From positions 27,261 to 91,260 of the forward strand of contig DFEB01000078.1 of assembly GCA_002368605.1 (NCBI GenBank): DNA of 64,000 bases, given 5' to 3'. This stretch comes from Treponema sp. UBA3813. GTDB taxonomy: Bacteria; Spirochaetota; Spirochaetia; Treponematales; Treponemataceae. The notes under the pieces were generated by a model. That model had not been told where the DNA came from. It did no database searches and saw only the letters and a list, made by a program, of their open reading frames with translations. Position 1 is the first letter of the stretch. Every line of letters begins with the position of its first letter. Below are positions 5,651 through 46,176 of the stretch, in pieces. The position numbers were made by a program, and so were the translations under genes.

Positions 5651-6435
5651 TGAAGAATGATTTTAGAAATGAACTTGCAGTTTGTGGTTTTGAAGCGGTT
5701 AAAGCTCTCGTGAAATGTAATCCGCAGAAAATTCGTCGTTTTTATTATACACGCGATCGAATGATGGATTTTAAGGATTTATTTAAGCAATTAGCCGAAC
5801 GAAAAGTACCTTATAATAATATCCCGGAAGGGGAGCTTGAAAAATTGAGCGGCACAGTGCATCATCAGGGGGTAGTCGCCATGATAGAGCAGCCGGAAAT
5901 CCCTCATTTGAACACCGACATAACTGACGGCTGGCTTCACAATAAAGAGAGTGCGATTTTGCTTGATCGCGTAGGAAACGCAAATAATCTTGGTGCGATT
6001 GTACGCAGCGCGGCTTTCTTTGGATTCAAGAATATTGTAATTCCGCGGGATGAAGAGCAAACTTCGGTAACGACGAGTTCTTATCGAGTAGCTCAGGGCG
6101 GAATGGAATATGTCAATGTGTATTCGATTCAGTCTATTGAGAAATTGCTTGTCTCTATGAAGGGGAAGATGATTCGCTTTGGAACAGATGTGCGAGGCGA
6201 CACCCCGGTGGAAGATATTCCGGAATTATGTTCAGAAAAAACCAAGCCTGCTCTTATTGTTCTTGGAAATGAAGAGCATGGTATTTCAGGGCTTGTGCGA
6301 AGAAACTGTGACGCGCTTATTCGGATTCCATTTGCTGCAACGCTTGATACAGACAAGACCCAGCCAATTGAGAGCCTGAATGTGGCGCAAGCGGCGGCGA
6401 TTATTCTGTATGAGTGTAGGAAATTAACGAAATAA
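5650..6435 (+). CDS. TrmH/SpoU-family RNA 2'-O-ribose methyltransferase
   Basis: A 261-residue SAM-dependent methyltransferase of the SPOUT superfamily acting on tRNA or 23S rRNA. The three family motifs are clear: NLGAIVRSAAFFGF (motif 1, with the catalytic Arg), ALIVLGNEEHGIS (motif 2) and IESLNVAQAAAI (motif 3), together forming the trefoil knot in the C-terminal ~160 residues. The N-terminal part resembles the substrate-binding domain of RlmB-like members. ATG at 5650 lacks a Shine-Dalgarno site; a TACTAT hexamer lies six bases upstream, which suggests a leaderless message. Earlier in-frame GTG and TTG codons (5614-5626) are less likely. The exact target nucleotide cannot be assigned. Confidence 0.88.
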   Translation: MKNDFRNELAVCGFEAVKALVKCNPQKIRRFYYTRDRMMDFKDLFKQLAERKVPYNNIPEGELEKLSGTVHHQGVVAMIEQPEIPHLNTDITDGWLHNKESAILLDRVGNANNLGAIVRSAAFFGFKNIVIPRDEEQTSVTTSSYRVAQGGMEYVNVYSIQSIEKLLVSMKGKMIRFGTDVRGDTPVEDIPELCSEKTKPALIVLGNEEHGISGLVRRNCDALIRIPFAATLDTDKTQPIESLNVAQAAAIILYECRKLTK

Positions 6436-32933: not shown

Positions 32934-32995
32934 TTGACAACAAAGGTTAGATTTAGTATATTTTTATTACGATAACAAAAATTAGACGAGACTAA
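32934..32995 (+). promoter_or_regulatory. Promoter and DtxR-like operator of the DUF3793-flavodoxin operon
   Basis: TTGACA (32934-32939), 17 bases, TATATT (32957-32962) form a strong promoter. Downstream at 32982-32995 lies TTAG-ACGAGA-CTAA, the same TTAG-N6-CTAA architecture as at 46014-46028. GTTAG copies also flank the -35 (about 32926 and 32946). Such TTAG/CTAA elements recall DtxR-family boxes, so metal-dependent repression is likely. Confidence 0.6.
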
Positions 32996-32999
32996 CAAA

Positions 33000-33425: not shown

Positions 33426-33818
33426 ATGGTAGCTATCGTATACGCATCAACAACAGGAAACACGGAGGCTCTTGCAAATGCCGCAAAAGAAGCAGCAGGC
33501 GCAGACGCATATTTCTCAACGGCAGATTCTGCTGACAGCGCGGAAGTTCTCAAGGCAGATTTGATTGCTTTGGGAAGCCCTGCAATGGGAGCAGAGCAGC
33601 TTGAGGATTCAATGGAATCATTCTATTCATCAATCGAGGGAAGTTTGAGCGGAAAAACAGTCGTTCTCTTCGGTTCTTATGACTGGGGCGACGGCGCTTT
33701 CCTTGAAGATTGGAAAGGCCGGCTTGAGGGAGCAGGCGCAAGTGTGAAAGCTGTCGTTAAAGCCCAGCTTACTCCAGATGACGCCGCTCTTTCAGAAATG
33801 AAAGCTGCAATCGCGTAA
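33426..33818 (+). CDS. Flavodoxin (short chain)
   Basis: A 130-residue FMN electron carrier. The phosphate-binding loop is YASTTGNTEALA near the N-terminus, the second FMN loop is ALGSPAMGAEQLE (about residue 58), and the third FGSYDWGDGAFLEDW (about residue 88) carries the aromatic flavin contacts. Flavodoxin replaces ferredoxin when iron is scarce, which fits the operator upstream. AAAGGAGCG precedes the ATG. It converges on the ammonia-lyase gene with a single base between stops. Confidence 0.93.
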   Translation: MVAIVYASTTGNTEALANAAKEAAGADAYFSTADSADSAEVLKADLIALGSPAMGAEQLEDSMESFYSSIEGSLSGKTVVLFGSYDWGDGAFLEDWKGRLEGAGASVKAVVKAQLTPDDAALSEMKAAIA

Positions 33819-36760: not shown

Positions 36761-36851
36761 GAACACCGGATCTGCGATAGATTTTTTCTATAGTCAGAAA
36801 AACTTCTTTCCGATATTCTATATAAGCCCTTGTTTGCTTGTGGGGCAGGCA

Positions 36852-36950
36852 AGGGTTCTCTGGAGAGTCCTCACGATGGAGTGGGGCGCCGAAGGGTTAA
36901 GATTATTACAATCGATATCTCAGGCACAAAGGACAGGGCGAAAGAAGTTC
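36852..36950 (+). promoter_or_regulatory. Glycine riboswitch
   Basis: The conserved glycine-aptamer words occur in order: TCTCTGGAGAGTCC, GGCGCCGAAGGGTTAAG, and ATCTCAGGCACAAAGGACAG. It appears to be one full aptamer; the following TTTGGAGAG at about 36963 could be a partial (ghost) second unit. It lies in the 328-base leader of the alanine/glycine:cation symporter gene, on the same strand. It would sense glycine and set transporter expression. Confidence 0.92.
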
Positions 36951-45513: not shown

Positions 45514-45542
45514 TTGCACGAAAACAGATTCTCGGTTATAAT
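45514..45542 (+). promoter_or_regulatory. Promoter of the DtxR-family gene
   Basis: TTGCAC (45514-45519), 17 bases, TATAAT (45537-45542). A CTAAC half-site follows at 45546-45550, consistent with weak autoregulation. Confidence 0.7.
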
Positions 45543-45570
45543 AAGCTAACTGTCTTTTTTGGAGGATTTT

Positions 45571-45933
45571 ATGTACGAGTCGGGCGAAGATTACCTCGAA
45601 GCAATATTAAGATTACAGTTAGAAAACGGATTTGTTCGCTCCGTAGATGTGGCAAATAAACTGGCTGTTTCGCGCCCCAGTGTCAGCCGGGCAATGGGCT
45701 TGCTCGAAAAAGACGGCTTTGTTGAATTCGGCATGGGAAACATGCTCAAACTCACCGAAAAAGGCAAGGCAAAGGCCGAAGATATTTACAATCGCCACAA
45801 ATTGCTCACGGTTTTCTTGCAGAAAATCACCGGGCTTCCAGAAGATCAGTGCGAAGAGAATGCCTGCCGCGTTGAGCATCAAATTGATGCCGATGTAGTA
45901 AAGGGAATTCAAATCTGGGTCGATAAAAACTAA
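45571..45933 (+). CDS. DtxR/MntR-family metal-dependent regulator (short form)
   Basis: A 120-residue regulator with an N-terminal winged helix (SVDVANKLAVSRPSVSRAMG) and a metal-binding dimerisation half, without the C-terminal SH3-like domain. Metal ligands can be matched: EDYLEAIL near the N-terminus, RHKLL for the central His, and ACRVEH near residue 105. The Cys in ACRVEH agrees with DtxR/IdeR (iron) rather than MntR, which has Glu there; the N-terminal Asp is MntR-like, so metal choice is open. ATG 45571 has GGAGG. The candidate small RNA immediately downstream carries the TTAG-N6-CTAA element it may recognise. Confidence 0.85.
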   Translation: MYESGEDYLEAILRLQLENGFVRSVDVANKLAVSRPSVSRAMGLLEKDGFVEFGMGNMLKLTEKGKAKAEDIYNRHKLLTVFLQKITGLPEDQCEENACRVEHQIDADVVKGIQIWVDKN

Positions 45934-45974: not shown

Positions 45975-46030
45975 TTGACAAAAAAAAGATAAAATGCTTT
46001 AATGAATATGAAAGTTAGCTATACCTAACT
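45975..46030 (+). promoter_or_regulatory. Promoter with DtxR-like operator for the small RNA
   Basis: TTGACA (45975-45980), 17 bases, TTTAAT (45998-46003). Immediately downstream AGTTAG-CTATAC-CTAACT (46013-46030) is a perfect 6+6 inverted repeat overlapping the likely start. A further CTAAC lies just 5' of the -35 (45962-45966). The operator matches the flavodoxin promoter element in architecture. Confidence 0.7.
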
Positions 46031-46176
46031 ATTTTAGTACCTCTTTAAGAAATTGCTTTTAGTGATTTCGGTGGAGTTGAGTTTATCGGGTGCTGTAGGT
46101 AGAGATGCAACATCCAATGATACCGGGGTCTTGAAATTTTGACTGTTTCTTCAAGATACCCGGTATTTTTTTCTTT
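46010..46176 (+). ncRNA. Candidate metal-regulated small RNA
   Basis: A ~165-base segment starts at a strong promoter and ends at a strong terminator, with no credible gene inside. The only frame of note is a 23-codon GTG frame (46071-46142) without a ribosome site, whose stop falls in the terminator loop. The RNA lies between the DtxR-like regulator gene and the MBL hydrolase gene, which has its own -10 (TATATT, 46205). It fits no riboswitch class I can recognise. By analogy with RyhB-type RNAs, an iron-starvation regulator is inferred. Confidence 0.6.
46122..46176 (+). terminator. Strong terminator of the small RNA
   Basis: A 14-bp stem, ACCGGGGTCTTGAA paired with TTCAAGATACCCGGT (one bulge/wobble), around a ~14-base loop, followed by ATTTTTTTCTTTT. 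Confidence 0.92.

Follow-up and report, generated by a model that had tools for sequence, protein, structure and literature searches.

The RNA locus and its surroundings

The window, by which we mean the whole 64,000-nucleotide stretch of Treponema DNA analysed here, from a rumen-type spirochaete, holds a predicted small RNA gene next to the gene of a DtxR-family regulator and, 13 kb away, a DUF3793-flavodoxin operon. The features that the argument needs are the following.

32981..32996 (+): operator preceding the DUF3793-flavodoxin operon; neither an RNA nor a terminator intervenes before the start codon
33000..33422 (+): DUF3793 gene, 140 aa, matching profile positions 2-94 of 167 only; in most relatives it adjoins the RNA
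33426..33818 (+): flavodoxin gene, 3′ of DUF3793
45535..45550 (+): operator-like palindrome with 1 mismatch over the -10 (TATAAT) of the DtxR-family gene, a promoter-like match
45571..45933 (+): DtxR-family regulator, 120 aa (Pfam Fe_dep_repress and Fe_dep_repr_C), too short to include an SH3-like domain at the C-terminus
45975..46003 (+): promoter of the RNA, TTGACA-17-TTTAAT, read from the letters; relatives keep the spacing between TTGAC and operator
46010..46172 (+): candidate sRNA of class A, about 163 nt long, its start placed from the -10
46013..46030 (+): palindrome AGTTAGCTATACCTAACT of the DtxR operator type, spanning the predicted start and potentially forming a hairpin at the 5′ end of the RNA
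46032..46046 (+): seed UUUUAGUACCUCUUU, complementary to Shine-Dalgarno/start regions, its AGUACCUC part conserved in the family
46119..46172 (+): terminator hairpin with a long, family-conserved loop UUUUGACUGUUUC (46137-46149) and a U-run

In line with a preliminary description of this DNA, we found a strong promoter (-35 TTGACA at 45975-45980, a 17-base spacer, -10 TTTAAT at 45998-46003), which a consensus promoter scan of the window did not return, its rule requiring A at the second -10 position. The operator-like palindrome reported over the start was likewise confirmed, and extends over 18 bp (arms AGTTAG/CTAACT at 46013-46030, core GTTAGCTATACCTAAC at 46014-46029). Allowing up to one mismatch, the window has three such sites versus 0.65 expected, a number reached in 3 of 100 shuffles, the other two lying before the DtxR gene (45535-45550) and before DUF3793 (32981-32996). 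Exact operators occur at three places in the whole genome, with a clear iron link at 46013-46030 only. A metal-regulator operator over the RNA promoter is one mark of iron-sparing sRNAs; here it takes the form of an operator-like palindrome over the predicted start, conserved in the family. The terminator had been described as 14 bp long; the hairpin stands but the length does not, since the stem (46119-46167) has 17 pairs and one bulge, its 3′ end passing into seven T at 46166-46172. A consensus terminator scan of the window, written for loops of 3-8 bases, misses this hairpin, the loop of which has 14.

The segment 46010-46178 folds with a z-score of -3.9, and none of 200 shuffles was as low. 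The interval 46010-46172 is without a credible or conserved open reading frame, as had been claimed for a transcript of about 165 bases; the one coding candidate is a 29-codon open stretch from TTG at 46053. At gathering score, Rfam gave no match over the RNA; its sole matches elsewhere in the window were a tRNA and, at 36850-36946, the aptamer of a glycine riboswitch (RF00504, 47.9 bits). The 11 relative loci scanned gave tRNAs only, and matches up to E = 10 were at chance level. A known riboswitch or Rfam sRNA family, RyhB included, was therefore rejected, the covariance models being without a match. The likeness to RyhB suggested earlier survives as a proposed role; homology with RyhB falls, to the extent that Rfam can tell.

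A family of RNAs in related treponemes

Searched at the DNA level, 97 genomes, that of the window among them, gave an 88% match over almost the whole query in one relative, G023 (155 of 163 RNA bases identical), and in a few others short matches near the operator and seed. Patterns reached further: the operator joined to AGTACCTC matched 9 of 98 congeneric genomes (reversed control, 0 matches) and a looser operator-seed pattern 14 of 98 (control, 2 matches), 15 genomes when combined. Three others show the element upstream of DUF3793, and the RNA, which we call class A, is thereby counted in at least 18 of the 98 genomes (G000, G013, G018, G022, G023, G028, G036, G038, G041, G047, G051, G097, G106, G122, G124, G128, G132 and G134). 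Its hallmark is the operator, AGUACCUC and a terminator with a variable stem and a constant loop.

By seed and loop we gathered 22 distinct class A RNAs of 81-205 nt, some from named loci of a species-wide scan, under the rule that a GACTGTTTC or GACATTTTC loop be followed by a T-run within limits, a rule that excluded locus L083. Their seed is AGUACCUC, or GUGUACCUC at L109; their loop is GACUGUUUC or GACAUUUUC, on stems that differ in sequence; and the operator palindrome is present in 21, L171 being without it. Thirteen of them are just 81-92 bases long. In the alignment of 12 of these 13 short RNAs (L040 left out), GUACCUC never varies, and compensatory changes are seen at 7 of the 18 consensus pairs. 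The predicted accessibility of the seed varies: GUACCUC has a mean unpaired probability of at least 0.86 in 14 of the 20 other class A RNAs, 0.41-0.78 in the remaining six, 0.56 in the window RNA and 0.51 in that of G023. This half-paired seed, as predicted for the window and G023, is a weak point of the sRNA reading. As to the loop, L083 (about 5920-6030) carries two tandem terminator-like hairpins before DUF3793, a GACTGTTTC loop and then a GACATTTTC loop, and this arrangement of one hairpin per loop variant suggests that the loop itself matters. We also considered the loop as a second seed and rejected it, its best duplexes in a sample of 610 ORFs being weak and not iron-linked by eye.

A strict promoter-operator-seed scan of 84,980 species, in which records near the window's genome may be missing, gave 22 loci: 20 in Treponema, one in a Spirochaetaceae MAG and one in Lewinellaceae. 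The last (L087) has neither the loop nor DUF3793 and looks like a chance match. DUF3793 lies downstream at 18 of the loci, the cultured species Treponema zioleckii (L069) being a carrier of the RNA in this position; two (L072, L080) are truncated where their stretch ends, and one (L070, on the G023 contig) lies beside a DtxR gene, so that the window is the second stand-alone case. Conservation beside DtxR-like genes, as expected earlier, thus holds for one relative (G023), while elsewhere the RNA is conserved beside DUF3793.

The slot between promoter and DUF3793 can hold other RNAs. In seven genomes (G001, G012, G017, G021, G037, G104, G123) it holds a second class, B, the loci of which (L118, L121, L154, L173-L176) share a conserved terminator loop UCUCCUUACACAGCCAC that is anti-Shine-Dalgarno-like (CUCCUU). 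A further unlike sequence with a terminator-like hairpin lies between operator and DUF3793 at L127 (G024). Separately, near 2189 on the reverse strand of L115 (G120), a double operator of the DtxR type precedes a gene with the start MIKIAIYGKGGIGKSTTTANLS, NifH-like by eye.

Antisense matches in the own genome

Within the RNA, UUUUAGUACCUCUU is antisense to Shine-Dalgarno/start regions, and two places of the own genome match seed bases in such a way that the opposite strand reads as a ribosome-binding site with its start codon. Searched with at most one mismatch, AAGAGGTACTAAA has six sites across the complete own genome. One is the RNA; the other five all lie directly before an ATG, which comes 12 or 13 bases after the site begins. 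The genes behind them encode a C_GCAxxG_C_C cysteine-rich redox protein, its start overlapping the stop codon with which a Fer4_5 membrane gene ends; a PALP enzyme that we take for cysteine synthase, encoded after a nitrogenase-component-type gene; a NUBPL/Mrp-type iron-transfer NTPase; desulfoferrodoxin; and a radical SAM/Fer4_12 protein, read as PflA. Three are iron proteins by family and two are linked through operon and function. Reversed AAGAGGTACTAAA had 28 sites, counted irrespective of their surroundings, versus 6; it is placement and gene identity that carry the case, not the number of matches.

The pattern AGAGGTAYTN{1,7}ATG has eight distinct sites in the own genome (reversed control, 3), namely six iron-linked genes, one EAL protein and one non-gene. 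New among them are two genes of one operon, a second nitrogenase-type gene and one for a radical SAM protein that we read as NifB-like. This nitrogenase-like operon of a treponeme (G000, contig C15, L152) comprises a NifB-like radical SAM gene, a NifX-like gene by eye, two PF00148 genes and cysteine synthase; three of its genes have seed-complementary ribosome-binding sites.

Duplexes between the seed and start regions were computed for 610 ORFs in a 600 kb sample of the own genome, of which contigs C15, C29 and C69 were chosen for known targets and C2 is a large contig that also holds targets. The best four belong to the C_GCAxxG protein, cysteine synthase, Mrp and a Fer4_20/GltD-like protein. 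The next four, at ranks 5-8, do not belong to iron proteins but to ribosomal protein L23, an NMT1-type protein, a GDT1 transporter and a permease. The PflA-like protein comes ninth and desulfoferrodoxin tenth. A Cys-motif regular expression, used as a proxy for Fe-S proteins, caught 23 of the 610 ORFs and missed known Fe-S proteins, and was replaced by Pfam names; enrichment by this proxy was weak (on all contigs, P=0.0016 for the top 15 and 0.051 for the top 10; once the three target-bearing contigs were removed, 0.095 and 0.045).

Antisense matches across genomes

In 15 RNA-bearing genomes, AAGAGGTACTN{1,7}ATG gave 14 matches versus 8 for the reversed control. Over all 98 genomes it gave 50 versus 49 (our own tally), and in the class A genomes 15 versus 9. 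What differs is the share of iron-linked genes, 9 of 15 matches in the 18 class A genomes versus 3 of 35 in the other 80 (Fisher P=2.8e-4), a contrast in which the sequences are not independent. The nine are four C_GCAxxG genes, cysteine synthase, Mrp, aconitase and two Fe-hydrogenases; the three are aconitase (G039), Fe-hydrogenase (G020) and Rrf2 (G019). Forty of the 50 matches encode at least 50 codons and were annotated by Pfam, the other ten (one class A, nine others) being scored as not iron-linked; with these ten dropped, P=0.001. Leaving cysteine synthase and Rrf2 uncounted gave P=3.9e-4, and leaving C_GCAxxG uncounted as well gave P=0.058. With one count per protein family, made by hand, the shares are 5/11 versus 3/31 or 3/32 (P about 0.02).

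Several targets recur: C_GCAxxG with GAGGTAC in five class A genomes, Mrp in G000, G023 and G036, and Fe-hydrogenase in G013, G124 and G036. Among the best 30 places of a C_GCAxxG homolog search that matched 66 of 98 genomes, GAGGTAC precedes 5 of 13 genes of class A genomes versus 1 of 17 others (P=0.04), and median duplexes with the window seed are -12.7 versus -8.9 (P=0.007). Two such targets are present in G020, though no class A RNA was found there.

Samples of four further class A genomes, consisting of the contigs that hold their RNA, were mixed. In G036 (214 ORFs) an Fe-hydrogenase ranked first, a folate enzyme second and Mrp third, and in G022 (118 ORFs) a radical SAM protein ranked second; nothing clearly iron-linked was seen among the proteins scanned from G038 (205 ORFs, three scanned) and G028 (135 ORFs, two scanned). 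For G049, in which no class A RNA was found (388 ORFs, two seeds), the six top proteins scanned included no Fe-S family. In all, 16 proteins from the top-10 lists of these five genomes, one with two seeds, were scanned with Pfam. Complementarity to the start regions of iron-protein mRNAs, a second mark of iron-sparing sRNAs, can be read from the own genome and from the 98-genome comparison, and is mixed in the samples of four others.

Discussion

In this study, we describe what we take, with a probability of roughly 0.78, to be the gene of a trans-acting sRNA (46010-46172) that would be controlled by a DtxR-family repressor and spare iron by pairing with start regions. The best reading, judged from sequence, is a new family working like FsrA or RyhB. 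The RyhB-like role proposed earlier gains support from a genus-conserved RNA family together with antisense matches at the starts of iron-linked genes.

What we observe directly is the anatomy of the gene, that its family is conserved, and where the antisense matches lie; from these we infer a course of events that includes transcription, repressor binding, the metal, target repression and a substitution by flavodoxin. While metal is plentiful, most likely Fe2+, a DtxR-family repressor would occupy the palindrome at the start site; the neighbour at 45571..45933 is the presumed repressor, and its own gene may be autoregulated through the operator at 45535-45550. When the metal drops, the RNA would be made and would end at its hairpin. 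Its stretch UUUUAGUACCUCUU could then pair with AAGAGGUACUAAAAUG-like start regions in the mRNAs of Fe-S proteins and their suppliers, blocking ribosome binding and so saving iron, and flavodoxin, under a similar operator, would replace ferredoxin.

The regulator bears on the choice between iron and manganese as the signal. According to Pfam it carries N-terminal DNA-binding and metal-binding/dimerisation domains, which agrees with its earlier description as DtxR-like, and its best solved relatives are IdeR, then MntR. The Fe-type primary metal site of DtxR is given as M10, C102, E105 and H106 in PMC2628430. In our alignment the C, E and H of this site (site 2) are present and D replaces M10, as in MntR; by our own reading site 1 departs as well (E83->T, H98->E). 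With C, E and H kept but D for M10, the metal is not readable from sequence. The same sRNA might therefore answer to manganese, or to manganese and iron together, and serve a general metal economy, a version to which the D residue and the altered site 1 lend some weight, as does TroR of T. denticola, which responds to both Mn and Fe (PMC2628430). The retained C, E and H speak against it, as do targets that include Fe-S and other iron proteins. We favour iron because of these predicted targets and the flavodoxin under a similar operator, and regard the manganese version as unlikely, albeit one to be reckoned with.

A different role, that of a cis-acting leader (5′ UTR) of the DUF3793(-flavodoxin) operon whose attenuator would let transcription through in response to some signal, is suggested by the relatives, in most of which the RNA sits between the DtxR-type promoter and DUF3793, with the terminator directly before the start of that gene and often adjoining its ribosome-binding site. 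The window copy would then be a relic left when the operon moved. However, DUF3793 does not invariably follow the RNA: in G023 and in the genome of the window the RNA stands alone beside a DtxR-like gene and retains promoter, operator, seed, loop and terminator, while DUF3793 lies elsewhere under its own operator and without a leader. This separation argues for a free RNA and not a leader only, and the seed matches start sites of other genes. We consider a leader alone improbable; a leader role and a trans role could coexist, and the RNA probably acts in trans, as far as its placement tells. As to the operon itself, flavodoxin accompanies DUF3793 in the window, and the DUF3793 of G023 (196 aa) spans profile positions 2-163; the window copy is by eye without an internal stretch, its frame intact. 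The arrangement of DUF3793 in G020 is by eye like that of the window and G023, and neither pattern searches nor weak DNA matches gave a class A RNA there.

It may also be asked whether the antisense matches are due to chance, ribosome-binding sites of the AGAGGTAC type being common, so that the Fe-S link would be coincidental and the RNA would do something else. The reversed pattern is as frequent over 98 genomes (49 versus 50), and the four fresh genome samples are mixed. Shuffled seeds nevertheless rarely or never reach the real duplexes. Over the 610 ORF starts, 0 of 120 full shuffles reached the best, third-best or fifth-best energy, and of 120 shuffles that kept the anti-Shine-Dalgarno core CCUCUU one reached the best, while the third and the fifth were matched by none of them; when the three chosen contigs were set aside, none of 60 came up to the best, second or third. 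Moreover, AGAGG lies upstream of 46 sample ORFs, and the seven in which TAYT (six) or TACG (one) follows are all iron-linked, five of these seven being on the target-chosen contigs C15, C29 and C69 and two on C2; none of the other 39, including a permease with AGAGGTACAA, is obviously so by eye. Chance thus appears a rather poor account of the matches. Finally, that the RNA encodes a small metal-regulated protein, of which MntS is an example, is very improbable, since the 29-codon stretch that would encode it is broken by a 1-base insertion in the nearest relative, G023, despite 155/163 identity, and 13 of 22 family members, at 81-92 bases, have a body too short for this stretch.

Iron-sparing RNAs are described from proteobacteria, Firmicutes and mycobacteria as mutually unrelated, IsrR, FsrA, RyhB, PrrF and MrsI having common targets and no shared synteny or sequence (PMC9410917, on which the following comparison also draws). 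Like the predicted treponeme RNA, FsrA of Bacillus subtilis spares iron and pairs a C-rich motif with Shine-Dalgarno sequences (PMC9410917), and pairing of this type is seen here between the seed UACCUCUU and AAGAGGUA. FsrA differs in being Fur-controlled and aided by FbpABC (PMC9410917), whereas the treponeme RNA has a DtxR-type operator, DUF3793 as its usual neighbour and no Rfam match. MrsI of Mycobacterium tuberculosis is alike in sparing iron under predicted IdeR control in a host without Hfq (PMC9410917), and IdeR is the closest solved relative of the treponeme regulator; MrsI belongs to another phylum, and its sequence was compared through the Rfam scan alone. IsrR of Staphylococcus aureus directs C-rich single-stranded motifs toward start regions of Fe-S enzyme mRNAs (PMC9410917) and shares the target types aconitase and glutamate synthase, but is Fur-regulated, has three C-rich regions and shows no sequence relation through Rfam. 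RyhB of Escherichia coli resembles the proposed role, a metal-repressed RNA lowering iron-protein synthesis, but depends on Fur and Hfq (PMC9410917) and finds no Rfam match here. The preliminary description knew of no such RNA from treponemes, and no such RNA is described in the titles and abstracts that our literature searches on treponeme and spirochaete small RNAs returned.

The promoter-DUF3793 slot holds two unlike RNA classes, A (seed AGUACCUC, loop GACUGUUUC) and B (loop UCUCCUUACACAGCCAC). Tentatively, and as a possibility to which we give rather little credence, the treponeme iron-sparing system might consist of a DtxR-controlled sRNA with DUF3793 as its protein partner or chaperone, the seed having been replaced, the protein kept, and the RNA freed beside the regulator in at least two genomes. 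A full-text literature search for DUF3793 turned up only work on fungal splicing.

In conclusion, a DtxR-controlled iron-sparing RNA in spirochaetes would, if true, be another independent solution to this task. The targets it offers, namely the places where translation begins in Fe-S carrier, hydrogenase, nitrogenase-like and radical SAM genes, are exact and testable. DUF3793 would gain a physiological setting, that of metal starvation, beside flavodoxin and an sRNA.
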